Part shown: in pieces, positions 69-8,907 of the stretch | How the letters are laid out: every line of letters begins with the position of its first letter | How positions within the stretch are numbered: the first letter of the stretch is position 1 | From: Candidatus Altimarinota bacterium | GTDB taxonomy: Bacteria; Patescibacteriota; Gracilibacteria; GCA-2401425; JAJOLG01 | Reading direction: 5' to 3' | Assembly (NCBI GenBank): GCA_021129445.1 | Contig: JAJOLG010000073.1 | Location: 1 to 8,907, forward strand | Length of the DNA stretch: 8,907 nucleotides | Notes under the pieces: model-generated | Told to the model about the DNA's origin: nothing | The model's input: only the letters and a program-made list of their open reading frames with translations | The model's database searches: none | Program-made: the position numbers and the translations under genes

Positions 69-1043
69 TTAAACTTCAAAATATTTTTCAATATCAGAAA
101 TTTTTATTTCTCAAATTCAAGCCTTGTGAAATTGCAGTGTTCAGGACAAAATTGCAATTTCAATCGCTTTTTCAATATTGTATCATTTTGATAAAAATGC
201 ACAAAGTGTTGCCATTGTTTGGTCTCAACATCAAGTTTCATCATGAAATTCAGAATCTTCAACTTCTGGAATTTTGAAATGTTTTTTTGTTTTTTCTGAA
301 AAAAAATATGCTCAATTTATTCAAGCCGTAATCAAAACATTTTTTACTCATTTTTCAAAAAATATTTTTGCAGATTTTTCTGCACTTTCAAAATCTTTTA
401 TTTCAATTTCTGTAAACATTTTTGCCTCATGTTCATTTGGTTTTATCAAAAAAATTTCCCTCTCAAAAAGCTCTGAATAATCAAAATTTTCTTCCATTCA
501 TCACGGATCAAAAATATTTTTTAATCAAAATTTTTTTGCTTTATCCATCGAGTGCAAAACTGTTTTAAACGGCATTTCCAAAGAATATGCCACTGCTCAT
601 CAATTGTTTCAAGCTATTTCAAAAATTTCCTCAGCATCATCAATATCCTTTTCGCAAAAATCTTCATTTATTCACGGAATTGAATAAATTTGATTATTTC
701 AATCTTTATCAACTGGAATAAGTGCAATTCAAGGCATTTTTCAGGTTTCTTCAAAATCCAAAATTTTAATAAAATCTGTATTTACACCATTTTTTTCAAG
801 CGACTCAACCGGCTTTTTCCAAAGTCAAAATTCATCTTTTGAAGTTTTTCAAATCATCGCAACTTCATTTTCTCAAAGCAAAAGCGATGCCATTGATGCA
901 ATATTTCTTGATTTTCATCAAGGTCAAATTTTACAAACTCATCACATTGCAAGTTCTCATTTTCAAACAATTTTTGGAACTCAAATTCAGACAATATCTG
1001 TATTTAATCCTCATGGGACGATTAGTTTTATTTTATTTTTCAT
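69..1043 (-). CDS. PfkB-family carbohydrate kinase (ribokinase-like)
   Basis: A 324-residue sugar kinase of the PfkB/ribokinase family, which transfers phosphate from ATP to a sugar or nucleoside hydroxyl in the cytoplasm. Seen with TGA read as Gly: an N-terminal strand and glycine pair VPGGLNTD (about residues 9-16), the first family signature GPGGKSRNIA (40-49), a central ATP-domain segment LIKPNEHEA, and the second signature DETGCGDQTMA, where Asp274 is the expected catalytic base and GCGD replaces the usual GAGD. Length is normal for the family. The ATG at 1043 gives a normal N-terminus right before the first strand. It is the last gene of the minus-strand cluster, 18 bp after SemiSWEET, and is followed by a strong hairpin. 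The substrate cannot be fixed: ribokinase, fructokinase or a nucleoside kinase are all possible. The neighbouring SemiSWEET suggests a sugar (inference). Confidence 0.9.
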
Positions 1044-1061: not shown

Positions 1062-1346
1062 TTAAAATCCTAAAAATGCAACCACAGTAGAAAAACTAGT
1101 CAAAGTTGCAATAGCTCAAAGCACAACTCAAATAGCATTCGGAACAACCATTGGCCAATCTTTTACAGGTCTAAAAAATCAGTAAATTGTCCAGGCTAAA
1201 CAGTTCACAGTTGTCACTGCTGGTAAAATCACAGACCCAGTTTGTCATTCCAAATTAAGTCTAATTAAATCAATGTAAGATACAAACATCGCTGTTCACA
1301 TAAAAGATGCAAACCATCAAACCGTTTTATTCATTTTTTCAGTCAT
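1062..1346 (-). CDS. SemiSWEET-type sugar transporter (PQ-loop/MtN3 family)
   Basis: A 94-residue, very hydrophobic protein with three predicted membrane helices (about residues 10-28, 39-58 and 66-91), the size and topology of bacterial SemiSWEETs, which dimerise to form a facilitator for small sugars in the inner membrane. Visible family marks are FMGTAMFVSYI in helix 1, GSVILPAVTTVNCLAWTIYG (residues 37-56) holding the Asn and Trp of the N-x3-W-x2-YG pattern, and the VVPNAIG segment of helix 3. The usual Pro-Gln pair of helix 1 is replaced by Ile-Asp (residues 25-26). Five TGA codons fall at glycines, including helix positions. An in-frame ATG at codon 5 is an alternative start; neither has a clear Shine-Dalgarno sequence. 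It lies 31 bp after the LOG-like gene and 18 bp before the PfkB kinase, suggesting sugar entry coupled to phosphorylation. Confidence 0.86.
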
Positions 1347-1377: not shown

Positions 1378-1977
1378 TTAATTCAAATCAGTTCACTTTA
1401 TAACCCTTTCATCAGCAAACTCAGGCTGAGGCATTTCACGAAGTGCTAAAACCATTTTTTCAACCAAAGTTTTTGGATCAGATTCAAAAATAATTCTGTT
1501 TGTCACTTCTCTATTACATATTTTTAAAATTTCTGGTAAATTATCAGCAACTCATCAAGTTCAAGTTAAAACTCAAACAAGTTTTTGCTCATCATAAGCC
1601 ACAACAAATTCATTTAAAGTCCCAACTCATCATCAAACTAAACAAATTGCATCACTTGAACGAATATTTGTCACATCTCTTCACATCAATCATTGTCAAG
1701 TATACAAAATAATATCGTATTCAGAACTTGGTGATTTATATATTTCAATATGCTCTTGCTCAGAAAAGGCTGGTGAAATTCACACCACAAATCATCAATT
1801 TTCTTTTGCTCAAATCGCTGCCTCGTTTGGCAAACCTGGACAAGCTCAATTTACCAAAATACAATCCAATTTTGCAATCCATTTTCATAATTCTTGTGAT
1901 TTTAAAATTCACTCATTTCTTCAAGTTGTAGGTCATTGTGCCGATCACATTACTCAAATTTTTGTTTTTTGTCTCAT
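1378..1977 (-). CDS. LOG/TIGR00725-like SLOG-domain Rossmann protein
   Basis: A 199-residue soluble protein with the layout of the LOG (lysine-decarboxylase-like) and TIGR00725 families: an opening strand KIGVMGSAQGPTTGRN, a glycine-rich segment LVNGACPGLPNEAAIGA, and the hallmark GGGVGTLNE at residues 115-123, matching the PGGxGTxxE nucleotide-binding motif with Gly for Pro. Several of these glycines are TGA codons. LOG enzymes release free bases from nucleoside 5'-monophosphates, but many SLOG proteins only bind nucleotides, so activity is not assigned. The ATG at 1977 lies just before the first beta strand and 24 bp after the stop of the upstream membrane-protein gene. SemiSWEET follows after 31 bp, so it sits inside the presumed operon. 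A role linking nucleotide or sugar metabolism is inference only. No N-terminal DprA-like extension or C-terminal fusion is present. Confidence 0.8.
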
Positions 1978-2001: not shown

Positions 2002-2475
2002 TTATTTTTCTGTTGATTCAAACAAATCAACAACTTTTCAGTCTAAAATTTTTCAATCGTACTCAAATTCGTGAATTACACCTCATTTTCACATAGTTGC
2101 TTCAAAATAAAAATGCACATAAATTCAAACCTGAGTCACTCTTTCATCTAAAATTTCTCAAAATTTTGGAAATTTAATTCAATAAATTTTTTCTAAATCC
2201 TCTATTTTTTCATCATTTCACGATTTAATTTTTTCTAAAAAATCTGCCAAGCTTAAAAAATTTTTTTCATCTCAAAAATTTTTTTCCTGCTCATCAGAAA
2301 AATTTTCCAAAAAAATTTTTGCTGAAATATCTTTAATATCAGAAAAATTTGTTTTTACAGAAAAAATTCACACTAAAAAAACAAAAAGTATCAAAAAAAA
2401 TTGAATTCTTTTTTTTAAAATATTTTTTTTATGTCAAAAAAATTTTTCTGATATTTTTTTTAAAATTTTTTCCAT
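2002..2475 (-). CDS. Single-pass membrane protein of unknown function
   Basis: A 157-residue protein that I do not recognise. A lysine-rich N-terminus (residues 1-23, seven or more Lys/Arg) precedes one hydrophobic helix (about 24-40, core FFLILFVFLVGIF). The basic-in rule places residues 41-157 outside the cytoplasm. The outer part is charged, first acidic and probably helical (about 45-95), then a likely beta-rich end with the segments GIYVHFYFEATMG and GVIHEFEYDG. No LPXTG-like sorting signal or lipobox is seen, although a sortase lies just upstream. The ATG at 2475 is the first in a frame open only since a stop at 2509-2511. It follows a TATAAT promoter by about 33 bp and heads the four-gene minus-strand cluster. 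Five or more TGA codons read as Gly lie in the C-terminal half, and the continuous frame supports a real gene. Being an envelope protein is inference. Confidence 0.72.
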
Positions 2476-3510: not shown

Positions 3511-5184
3511 ATGAAAAAATTCGTAATTTACATAGATTTTAACGAAACAATTGACACACTTCTCGAAAAAATTCGTGCATCTTTGGAGTTTAAAAACAAG
3601 GTTTATATTTTCATTCCAGAGGAATCAAAAATTTTTGACAACAAAAATTCTTTGGAGATTTTTTATGAAGAAGTTAAAAAATTAAAAAAAGAAATAATTT
3701 TAGTTTCAAAAAATTTAAAAATTTTCCAAGAAGCGACAAAATTAAAAATTTCTGTTCAGAATATTTTAGATGAAAATTTAAAATTTTGAGAAAATATTGT
3801 TAAAATCAAAAAAGTTCAAAAAAAATGAAATGAGGAAATTTTTTATTCTTTCAATAATTTAAAAGAAAAACTTGAACAAAATTGAATTACAATTTTTTTT
3901 GAAGACAAAAAAGAAAAAATTTTAGAATCTTACAAAATCAACAAAAAAATCTCAATTTGATTGATTTTTTGAAGTTTTTCTCTGATTTTTGCAATTTTAA
4001 TTTTGATAATTCCAAATTCAAAAGTTTACATAAAACCAAATTCAAAAGAGATAAAATACACATGAAACTTCATTTTTTGAGAAGAAAAAACGAATGCAAA
4101 AAATATCGCAGATGACAGCAAAAGTTTTATTTGATACAAAAATATCAAAAAATTTTACGAAAAATGATTTGAAATTCAGTCAAACTGAAAGGTTTTTGAG
4201 TGAAATTATTCAAAATGAATAATTGAAATTGAGAATGCTTTTTGAGAAGATTTGGCGATAAAATGAGGTTCAACATTAAAAACAAAAAACTGACTTTTGT
4301 TTAAAACAATGTATTATGTCAATATTCCAAAAGCAAAAAAAATAAAAAACAAGGATTGAAAAATTATTTTAAAAAATTGAAAAGCAAAAGTGAAAATTAT
4401 CGCAAAAGATTTTGATATTTTTAATGAAGTTATTTGAGAAAGATGAAATGTGAAAAAATGAACCATTTTTGAAATACCGGCACTTTCCGCATTTTTGTCA
4501 AAAATGCTTACTTTTACGGCTAGTCAAGATTTTCAATGATGAACAACAAAATGGAGAAAACTTGTCACAGAGGACGATATAGAAGTTTGAAAAAAAATTA
4601 TTAGAAATAAAATTTTGGAAATTGCAAGACAAGATATTTTGAAAGAATTAAATGAGGAAAATTTAAAAAATTGAACCGATTTAAGAATTTTTCCAGCAAA
4701 AGATTTTTTTAATGTTCAAATATTGGACATTAAAATTCCAGAAAATATTATTTGACAAAAACTAAATAAATTCACAATTACTTGAAGTTTTTTGATAAAT
4801 TCAATAATTTATGATAACAAAAAACTTTACAAAAAATTAGAAAACTGAATCCGTTGAGCAGTTCATCCAAAAATGGTTTTAAGTTTTATTGATGCGAAAA
4901 ATTTCAATTTAAGAGTTTTTGAAGTTGATGAAAAATCAAATCAAATCAAAACGACAATTGCGATTTCTTGAAGGGAAGATTACGATTTATTTTGAAAAAC
5001 AGATTATTGAAAAAGATTTTTAAAAGAAATAAAAGAAAAAATCAAAAACCTTGATAAAAAAACTGCACTTGAATATTTAAGAAATTTTAATGAAGTTTGA
5101 GCTGTAAAAATCAAGATTTGGCCACCTTTTTTAGATAAATTACCGAAATTTGAAGATGGGATTGAGATTTTGGAGATGAAATAA
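3511..5184 (+). CDS. Membrane-anchored baseplate J-like protein of CPR type
   Basis: A 557-residue protein, visible in full only with TGA as Gly (the frame holds more than 30 TGA codons). Residues 1-146 form a charged, probably cytoplasmic alpha/beta domain (start KKFVIYIDFNETIDTLLEKI). A membrane helix lies at about 149-168 (LIFGSFSLIFAILILII), and residues 169-557 would be outside. The outer part has a segment with GGSTLKTKNGLLFKTMYYVN and NIPKAKK, the pattern of strands after a threshold glycine seen in baseplate J/gp47-like domains. It ends with VKIKIWPPFLDKLPK, like the C-terminus of long membrane proteins annotated baseplate J-like in CPR genomes. That family's role is unproven: a surface appendage or contractile-device part is possible. 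It is divergent from the sortase. The ATG is the first in frame and is followed at once by a beta strand. Recognition rests on architecture and remembered family patterns, so the name is tentative. Confidence 0.65.
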
Positions 5185-5368: not shown

Positions 5369-5418
5369 ATTTAAATAAATTTTTAAAACAAGCATCAAAC
5401 GAATTAAATGCAAAATAA
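5335..5418 (+). pseudogene. Out-of-frame tail of the RHH-like gene
   Basis: An open stretch in a different frame from the small ORF before it, with no start codon of its own, ending at TAA 5416-5418. The translation around residues IRLILNLNKFLKQA looks like the amphipathic second helix of a ribbon-helix-helix protein. It overlaps recJ's first four codons. Listed separately because it marks where the reading frame seems to have been lost; it is weak evidence alone. Confidence 0.3.
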
Positions 5419-7087
5419 AACCTCAATAACCTGAAAAAAATGGCAACTTTTATCAGAAAAATTCTCAAAAAATTTCGAAAATTTTTCTGATTTTTTTCTT
5501 TATTCAAGAAAAATTTCTGATAAAGAAAAATTTTTTAATTGAAAATATCCAGAAGATTTGAGAGACTGAAAAAATTTGAAGGATATTGAAAAATGAGTTA
5601 AAAGAGTTGTTTTTGCAATTGAAAAACAAGAAAGAATAATTATTTTTTGAGACTACGATTGCGACTGAATCCCATGAACTACAATGCTTTTCGATGCTTT
5701 AAAAAATTTATGAGCACAAGTTTCTTACAGAATTCCAAATCGTGAAAAGGATGGATATTGATTAAAAAACTACTTTTTCGATGAATTCAAAGAAAAAAAT
5801 GTGAAACTTGTAATCACAGTTGACAACTGAATTTCTTCGATAAATGAAGCAGAATATGCAAAAAAACTTGGAATTGATTTGATAATTACAGATCATCACG
5901 AAGTGCAAAATTGAGAAATTCCAAAATGTATCGCTGTAATAAATCCCCAAAGACCTGATTGTAATTATGGTTTTTGATGAATTTGTTGAGCTGTTGTGGC
6001 CTGGAAATTTGCGATTGAAATTTGAAAAAAAATAAAATGAGAAGAATGGGCAAATAAAAATATTCGTGATAAACATATTGAACTTGCGGGATTATCAACA
6101 GTTGCTGATATTATGCCACTTGTGGATGAAAACAGAATTATTGTTAAAGAAGCATTGGAAAAAATAAAAAATACTAAAAATCCTTGAATTCAAGCCATTT
6201 TAAAAGAAATGAAATTTAAGCCTGAATTAGATTTAGATTCAAGTTTTTTTGGATTTAAACTTTGACCAAGAATAAATGCAACTTGAAGAATGCATGAATG
6301 AATTTTTTGAGTTCAACTTTTATTGTGAAAAACTGAATTTGCACCTTTTATTGAAAAATTAAACACAGAAAGAAAAAAAATTGTTTCATGAATTTTAAAA
6401 AAAGTTTCAGAAGATTTGACAAAAAAAGCAGAATCTGAATGAAAAATCAATGAATTAATTATTTTACATAACTCAAATTGGAAATCGTGAATAATCTGAC
6501 TTATTGCCTGAAAAATCACAGAAAACTTAAATCTACCATCAATAGTTTTGCAGGACAAATGAGATTTTTTGGTTGCCTCCTGCCGTGCCCCGGAATGATT
6601 TAATATTTTCGAATTACTATCAAATTTTAAGGATTTATTTGAACATTTTTGAGGCCACGAACAGGCTTGCTGATTTTCAATCAAAAAAGAAAATTTTGAA
6701 AAATTCGAAAAAAAAGCAAAAATTTTATGAAAAGAATTTTTAAAAAAATCCCCTCTTGAAAATTTTTTAATCGCAGATTTTGAATTATCAGAGAAATTTT
6801 TAAACTTAAATTTTCTTGATGAAATAAAAAAATTAGAGCCATTTTGAAAATGAAACGAATCACCAAAATTTTTAATAAAAAATATTTTACCAGAATATTT
6901 TTTAGTCTGAAAAGAAAAAAATCACATGCAATTAAAATTTTTTTGAAACCGTGCAATTTTTTTTCAATGATGAAAATTTTTTGAAAAATTAAATTGAAAA
7001 AAATGTGATATAATTTTCACACTTGCAGAAAATTTTTTTAATTGAAAAAGGCAGTTAAATATTATGATTGAAGATATTTCTATTTAA
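5408..7087 (+). CDS. recJ: Single-stranded-DNA-specific exonuclease RecJ
   Basis: A 559-residue RecJ, the 5'-3' single-strand DNA exonuclease of recombination and repair, in the DHH/DHHA1 phosphoesterase superfamily. Motifs in order: GDYDCDGIPG (Asp82, Asp84 and Asp86 region, metal binding), VTVDNGI, the namesake DHHE at residues 162-165, LSTVADIMPL, GPRINATGRMHEG, the SCRAPEGFNIFELL segment and the DHHA1 GGHEQACGFSI (Gly415, Gly416, His417). All metal ligands look intact. The length fits the core enzyme with the nucleic-acid-binding domain, without long extensions. The ATG at 5408 is chosen because KKWQLL follows, as in RecJ N-termini; it lacks a Shine-Dalgarno sequence. Over 30 in-frame TGA codons fall at glycines, including the motif I and GGH positions. 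A cysteine in motif I (DYDCDG) is a mild oddity. uvrB follows after 58 bp. Its first codons contain hairpin-forming repeats. Confidence 0.95.
5452..5530 (+). promoter_or_regulatory. Two adjacent perfect inverted repeats inside the start of recJ
   Basis: ATCAGAAAAATT (5452-5463) and AATTTTTCTGAT (5480-5491) form a 12-bp stem with a 16-base loop, followed directly by TTTTTT (5492-5497), the shape of an intrinsic terminator. TTTTTCTTTAT (5493-5503) then pairs with ATAAAGAAAAA (5520-5530) in a second 11-bp stem that would use that T-tract. Both lie within recJ codons 15-41. They could form an attenuator or could be chance in A/T-rich coding DNA. Confidence 0.35.
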
Positions 7088-7145: not shown

Positions 7146-8907
7146 ATGCAAAAGAAAAAATTCAAACTAAAATCAAAATTCAAGCCGTCGTGAGACCAAC
7201 CAAAAGCAATAAAAACCTTGGTTGAATGAATAAAAAACTGAGAAAAAGAACAAGTTTTACTTTGAGCAACATGAACTTGAAAAACTTTCACAATAGCAAA
7301 TGTCATTCAGGCAACTCAAAAAACAACAATTATTTTTGCTCACAATAAAACCCTTGCAGCGCAACTTGCTGCGGAAATGAAAGAGTTTTTTCCAGATAAT
7401 GCAGTTTGTTATTATATTTCTTATTATGATTATTATCAACCTGAGGCATATATACCAAAAAGTGACACTTTTATCGAGAAAACTACCCAAATAAATGAAG
7501 AAATTGCAAAATATCGTCATTTTGCAACTCAAAATTTAATTGAAAGAAACGATGTGATAATTATCGCATCAGTTTCTGCAATTTATTGACTTTGAGACCC
7601 GGAAGATTATAAAAAATTAGCAATAAACCTAAAAGTTTGAGATGAAATAAATAGAAATGATTTTTTGAGAAAATTGACTGATATTCAATTTACAAGAAAT
7701 TTTTGAAGTTTTAAACAAGGGCAATTCAATGTTTTATGAGACATTGTAGAAGTCTTTCCGCCAGCATGAGACGATATAATTCGTATCGAATTTTTTTGAG
7801 ATGAAATTGAAAAAATTTCGAGAGTTGACCATTTAATTTGAGATACAATTGAAGAAGTAGATTTTTTTAGAATTTACCCAGCAAAACACAATGTAACATT
7901 GAAAGAAAAAATAAAAGAAGCAATTCCAAATATTATTGAAGAAATGAAAACACAAGAAAAATTTTTCCTTGACAGATGAGATGCTTTGGCAGCAGAAAGA
8001 ATTGTGGTTAGAACCAGTTATGATATTGAAATGCTGAGGGAAACTTGATATTGTAATTGAGTTGAAAATTATGTAAAACACTTAAATTTTCATGAATGAC
8101 AAAAAAAAGTTCCAACACTTTTAGATTTTTTACCAGAGGATTTTTTACTAATAATTGATGAATCTCACATTACGGTTCCACAAATTTGAGCAATGTACGA
8201 ATGAAATAAATCAAGAAAACAAAGTTTGATAAATTATGGTTTTAGACTTCCATCGTCAGAAGAAAATCGCCCATTGATGTTTTCTGAATTTGAAGAATAC
8301 ATGAAAAATACAATTTTCGTTTCTGCAACACCTTGAAAATATGAATACAGAAATTGAGATGAAAACACAAGAGTTGCACAGCAAATTATTCGTCCAACTT
8401 GACTCTTAGATCCAAAAATAACTGTAAAAAAGAAGGATAAAATGGTTGAAGATGTTTGCGACGAAATTCGTAAAGTTATTGCAAAATGAGAAAGAGCGCT
8501 TGTGACAACTGTCACAAAAAAATCTGCCGAAGAAATTTCAAATCACTTTTTATCCCAATGAATTAAAGCAAATTATCTACATTCTGAAATAGATACAATG
8601 GAAAGAATTGAGATTTTAAGAGATTTAAGATTGTGAAAAATTGATGTAATTGTTTGAATAAATCTTTTAAGAGAATGACTTGATCTTCCAGAGGTTTCAT
8701 TAATTTCAATTTTGGATGCTGATAAAAGATGATTTTTAAGATCAAAAGATGCACTTATTCAAATAATTTGAAGAGCTGCAAGAAATGTAAATTGAAGAGT
8801 GATAATGTATTGAGATGAAATCACAGAAGTAATGGAATATGCAATAAATGAAACAAACAGAAGAAGGTCCATTCAAGAAGAATACAACAAAAAACACTGA
8901 ATCACTC
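7146..8907 (+). CDS. uvrB: UvrABC system protein B (partial, 3' end outside window)
   Basis: The first 587 residues of UvrB, the damage-verifying helicase-like subunit of nucleotide excision repair that receives DNA from UvrA and recruits UvrC. Visible: the N-terminal signature FKPSGDQPKAI, Walker A GATGTGKT (residues 40-47, Lys46), the beta-hairpin [12 protein letters not shown] (93-104) that probes the damaged strand, [26 protein letters not shown] with the DESH Walker B box at 338-341, FVSATPG, the [13 protein letters not shown] segment, [15 protein letters not shown], and helicase motif VI QIIGRAARN (539-547). About 34 of roughly 36 glycines are TGA codons, including all three in Walker A. 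The ATG at 7146 gives the normal N-terminus. The coding frame is still open at the window end; about 70-80 residues, including the UvrC-binding UVR domain, should follow. Confidence 0.97.

Follow-up and report, generated by a model that had tools for sequence, protein, structure and literature searches.

Reassignment of the UGA stop codon to tryptophan has evolved many times. The reading of UGA as glycine is likewise an established code (NCBI translation table 25), with proteomic proof in the BD1-5/SN-2 Gracilibacteria (PMC4032931) and, in SR1 bacteria, a tRNA-Gly with anticodon UCA that is charged with glycine (Campbell 2013, as described in PMC13293708). This glycine code has been reported as restricted to JAEDAM01 (53 genomes; PMC13092985), and a 2026 review also confines it to this group, comprising the Absconditabacteria and the BD1-5 Gracilibacteria, and states that it arose once, in their common ancestor (PMC13293708). 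A separate UGA reassignment occurs within the same phylum in the Patescibacteria family JAKLIH01, where the codon has moved to tryptophan and not, as in the genome described here, to glycine (PMC13092985). Further codons are affected in these bacteria: Codetta assigned both CGA and CGG to tryptophan in Absconditabacteria, and CGG to tryptophan in some Gracilibacteria (PMC8629427).

The genome considered here shares its reading of UGA with the BD1-5/SN-2 Gracilibacteria (PMC4032931). It resembles SR1/Absconditabacteria (table 25; Campbell 2013, in so far as it is cited in PMC8629427 and PMC13293708) in the same reading, in its low GC content and in an RF2 that was not found in the present assembly. 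What is new, as far as the open literature that we searched shows, is the occurrence of this code in a lineage that is sister to a standard-code genome bearing RF2. We put at about two in three the probability that this lineage represents a second, independent reassignment of UGA to glycine in bacteria, within an order where the other sampled genome keeps RF2 and still terminates at UGA, and that it was accompanied by a shift of CGG to tryptophan.

The window, a stretch of 8,907 nucleotides, is contig C34 of a metagenome-assembled genome of 672,893 bases in 77 contigs, with an estimated completeness of 94.8%. Its longest start-to-stop open reading frame is 123 amino acids under table 11, and the longest under table 25 are 587, 559 and 557 amino acids; the initial annotation had foreseen such fragmentation under the standard code. 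Under table 25 the window is tiled by eight genes, with uvrB, recJ and a gene for a 557-amino-acid protein on the plus strand and the other five on the minus strand. TGA supplies 189 of the 209 glycine codons across these genes, and although the interval given in the initial annotation spans uvrB only, the code is common to all eight. The genes and motifs are as follows.

69..1043, minus strand: PfkB-family sugar kinase with GPGGKSRN; 32 TGA and 2 GGN codons; Pfam PfkB, 4.8e-33
1062..1346, minus strand: SWEET/MtN3-type half transporter; 6 TGA and 2 GGN codons; Pfam MtN3_slv, 3.9e-6
1378..1977, minus strand: SLOG/LOG-type Rossmann protein with GGGVGT; 22 TGA and 2 GGN codons; Pfam LDcluster4, 1.7e-37
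2002..2475, minus strand: 157-amino-acid hypothetical protein; 11 TGA and 1 GGN codons
2581..3288, minus strand: sortase; 13 TGA and 3 GGN codons; Pfam Sortase, 7.6e-24 (code 25)
3511..5184, plus strand: 557-amino-acid protein; 32 TGA and 2 GGN codons; ends in TAA; frame open only with TGA as sense
5408..7087, plus strand: recJ; 559 amino acids; 40 TGA and 6 GGN codons; ends in TAA; NCBIfam recJ, 478 bits against a cut-off of 397 (TGA as glycine)
5651..5668, plus strand: RecJ DYDCDG motif, its glycine encoded by TGA (direct reading of codons)
7146..8907, plus strand: uvrB (excinuclease subunit B), its frame still open where the window stops; 33 TGA, 1 GGG and 1 GGT among 587 codons in the window; NCBIfam uvrB, 902 bits against a cut-off of 743 (code 25)
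7263..7286, plus strand: UvrB P-loop, TGA GCA ACA TGA ACT TGA AAA ACT = GATGTGKT; codons 40, 43 and 45 are glycine in 26 of 26 relatives
8676..8693, plus strand: UvrB GLDLPE motif, glycine encoded by TGA; codon 511 is glycine in 26 of 26 relatives
8784..8810, plus strand: UvrB QIIGRAARN motif, glycine encoded by TGA; codon 550 is glycine in 25 of 25 relatives

Those motif readings first made from the letters alone that we checked are all correct. The Walker A sequence of UvrB becomes GATGTGKT only when TGA is glycine, the count of glycine codons in uvrB is exact in having a single GGG and a single GGT beside TGA, and QIIGRAARN, GLDLPE, DYDCDG, GGGVGT and GPGGKSRN are all present under this code. 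The RecJ motif GGH is also present, with TGA at its first glycine as had been claimed; its second glycine, however, is GGC. Searches against Pfam and NCBIfam gave no match for the 557-amino-acid protein (3511-5184, plus strand) or the 157-amino-acid protein (2002-2475, minus strand), both of whose frames are intact. The former has, by eye, a hydrophobic segment at about residues 150-170.

UGA almost certainly encodes glycine in this organism, genome-wide and as the main glycine codon. Against 26 standard-code relatives, glycine occurs 671 times in the 33 columns where UvrB has TGA, with alanine next at 31, and 18 of these columns are glycine throughout. When TGA was translated as glycine, serine, alanine, cysteine or tryptophan, the UvrB profile scored 902, 829, 828, 822 and 801 bits and the RecJ profile 478, 437, 429, 412 and 380 bits, respectively, a lead for glycine over the other four residues of at least 70 bits in UvrB and at least 40 bits in RecJ. 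A third line of evidence is a Codetta-style tally, in which 108 genes from the window and 15 further contigs (16 in total) were aligned to standard-code relatives, overlapping open reading frames having been removed before the final count. Of 2252 aligned TGA codons, 59% lie opposite glycine (64-78% for GGN codons), and the log-likelihood is -4112 for glycine and -6813 for the residue ranked second. Among the 3145 glycine codons in these genes, 2673 (85%) are TGA, and the codon occurs inside every one of the 108; with TGA taken as sense, 96 of the tallied genes end in TAA and 10 in TAG.

The glycine reading put forward in the initial annotation is favored alike by the UvrB columns, the profile scores and the 108-gene tally. 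Tryptophan, cysteine, serine and alanine are ruled out by the UvrB and RecJ profiles and the genome tally. That UGA might specify another residue (tryptophan or cysteine, the meanings it has under tables 4 and 10), or mark decayed genes or programmed readthrough, has nothing in its favor among our results and is scarcely credible given a gap of 2700 log units in favor of glycine, the best profile scores for that residue, the placement of TGA at invariant glycines including those of the P-loop, intact gene lengths and strong profile matches. Apparent signals for CAN as proline and CTN as arginine in a first tally arose from antisense open reading frames matched to antisense open reading frames, and disappeared once overlapping frames were removed.

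The initial annotation had implied that the organism belongs to the known clade of Gracilibacteria and Absconditabacteria that read UGA as glycine; our trees do not support such a placement. The sample comprises one fragmented genome of the window's family and one sister genome (G001), and the two are assigned to one order independently of the marker trees. Two further families, f12 and f15, read UGA as glycine; CGA is tryptophan in f12 (genome G031) and arginine in f15, codon meanings by which f12 fits the Absconditabacteria and f15 the BD1-5 Gracilibacteria. A three-gene tree (EF-G, UvrA and UvrB; 28 genomes, 2222 columns), in which f12 is represented by EF-G only and f15 by marker loci only, joins the window's genome and G001 as sisters with support of 100/99 and sets both f12 and f15 apart, so that the genome falls neither with the SR1-like nor with the BD1-5-like family. 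Dayhoff-6 recoding, which reduces composition effects, returns the same pair at 99.7/99, and single genes support it at 98 (EF-G) and 96 (UvrB with outgroups). A six-genome tree with few shared genes also joins them, and EF-Tu of G001 is 84% identical to that of the window's genome, as compared with 69-73% for the others. UvrA taken by itself gives no resolved position for the window's genome. Terminal branches in the trees are long. A UvrB scan of named genomes returned mostly Firmicutes and Proteobacteria, with one standard-code Candidatus Gracilibacteria.

The sister genome possesses both RF1 and RF2, and TGA is the stop codon in 11 of about 90 of its open reading frames with homologues, UvrA among them. 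We surveyed RF2 across genomes of the class by prfB score, to which RF1 also responds weakly. Nearly all other families score 1e-100 or better, and G001, the only other sampled genome of the window's order, scores 2.6e-118; genomes of families f12, f15, f20 and f21, apart from G116, show either no score or only the weak one that RF1 can produce (best E from 1e-61 to 1e-86). The RF2 of G116, a member of f15, is strong and full-length (1e-152), although the rest of that family lacks the factor; its bin measures 2.7 Mb in 500 contigs, and contamination is likely.

Since RF2 and termination at UGA are both found in its sister, a separate origin of the glycine code in the window's lineage appears likely from these comparisons. 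Our confidence is tempered by the small number of markers, by long branches and by a sampling that consists of a single fragmented genome and a single sister. The opposing explanation is that the code was inherited from the single known ancestor of Absconditabacteria and BD1-5 Gracilibacteria, either with the trees misplacing this genome or with an older change from which G001 and its neighbors reverted to UGA as stop. Common descent would be the simpler account of a shared UGA reading and a shared CGG shift that would otherwise be coincidence, since Absconditabacteria have the same code and a similar movement of CGG to tryptophan (PMC8629427), and it accords with the one origin given in the review (PMC13293708). 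Furthermore, EF-G alone places f15 beside the pair of the window's genome and G001 with support of 88. Yet approximately unbiased (AU) tests reject both the union of all UGA-glycine genomes in one clade (p 0.004) and the union of the window's genome with f15 (p 0.0055), the sister relationship to G001 recurs with EF-G, with UvrB, in the three-gene alignment and after recoding, and RF2 is present in almost every other family of the class. Reversion requires that RF2 be regained; even under the EF-G topology a single origin entails that G001 regained it. We regard common descent as unlikely on this balance, and favor a separate origin.

A chimeric bin, or a contig contaminating it from a known code-25 bacterium, is a further rival explanation, and the short contigs (77 for 0.67 Mb), the missing RF1 and the recovery of only 26 tRNAs give some reason to consider it. 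However, TGA serves as a sense codon in all 16 sampled contigs, at 22-29% GC, and the estimated contamination is 0.54%. Long open reading frames on the tRNA-bearing contigs likewise appear only with TGA as sense, and hence the recoding is not confined to one stray contig. Moreover, TGA-rich EF-G and UvrB lie on different contigs and each has G001 as its sister; with 57 TGA codons of its own, the EF-G gene holds a tree position that a chimeric bin cannot explain. Such an artefact is very improbable.

In the reading that we prefer, RF2 would have been lost in the lineage of the window's genome, UGA would have passed to glycine separately from the clade of Absconditabacteria and BD1-5 Gracilibacteria, and CGG would have moved to tryptophan as well. 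By analogy with SR1, the decoder of UGA would be a tRNA-Gly(UCA) that glycyl-tRNA synthetase charges, and the gene for this tRNA would lie outside the fragmented assembly. RF2, whose absence had been anticipated together with the code, was indeed not found in the 77 contigs, a result weakened by the failure to find RF1 there despite the estimated completeness of 94.8%. RF1 is needed for genes ending in TAA and TAG. The tRNA-Gly(UCA) that had also been anticipated, and that SR1 possesses, was not recovered: the assembly yielded 26 tRNAs, including tRNA-Gly(UCC), and tRNA-Gly(UCA), tRNA-Met, tRNA-Glu and others were not found in it. A tRNA family search with E up to 10 added one further fragment and nothing else, and a pattern search for UCA-anticodon tRNAs returned four AT-rich matches, none of them tRNA-like, as compared with two for the reversed control pattern. 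Formally this outcome goes against the glycine reading, a genome lacking the tRNA having been named in the initial annotation as grounds for refuting it. Since tRNA-Met, tRNA-Glu and RF1 are indispensable to a living cell and are equally missing from the assembly, the missing tRNA-Gly(UCA) is no refutation of the glycine reading.

CGG is probably read as tryptophan in this genome, on the evidence of few sites: its 14 aligned codons lie opposite tryptophan in four cases, tyrosine in four, phenylalanine in two and arginine in none, with best-fit models of -35.3 for tryptophan, -35.7 for tyrosine and -39.7 for phenylalanine. This pattern recalls the CGA and CGG reassignments of Absconditabacteria (PMC8629427). 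CGA is not clearly tryptophan here: it lies opposite arginine in three of nine aligned codons, with no tryptophan among those listed, in contrast to its tryptophan meaning in the f12 genome and in Absconditabacteria. Because CGG behaves as tryptophan, table 25 may be incomplete for this genome.

In the window's genome, a tRNA with anticodon CCG (C5:3026-3102) combines a tryptophan-like acceptor end (A1:U72, G73) and A37 with an arginine-like A20. Anticodon CCA is carried by two tRNAs: that at C4:12830-12904 has G1:U72 and G73, whereas that at C8:1944-2019 has C1:G72, A73 and G37 and most closely resembles a tRNA-Arg(UCG). These molecules may be a trace of a shift in the decoding of CGG and UGG.

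Were a second origin, in a nearby yet distinct lineage, to be borne out, a standard-code sister and a recoded genome would form a matched pair. From such a pair one could trace in what order RF2 was lost, tRNA-Gly(UCA) appeared, AT bias set in and CGG shifted. Evolution would in that case have arrived at the two codon changes repeatedly, and they would not be one historical accident. There is also a practical consequence, in that standard-code annotation breaks nearly every gene in such genomes, and rules limiting table 25 to Absconditabacteria and Gracilibacteria would overlook the window's lineage.

The release factor survey also drew attention to G016, a genome of family f17 with an estimated completeness of 100%. 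It has a single match to the RF-1 family, which is of the RF2 type, and RF1 is apparently absent. Within a tiny sample of three loci (L065, L269 and L302), the stop codons of its main genes are TGA or TAA and in no case TAG, and termination at UAG has possibly been lost in this organism.
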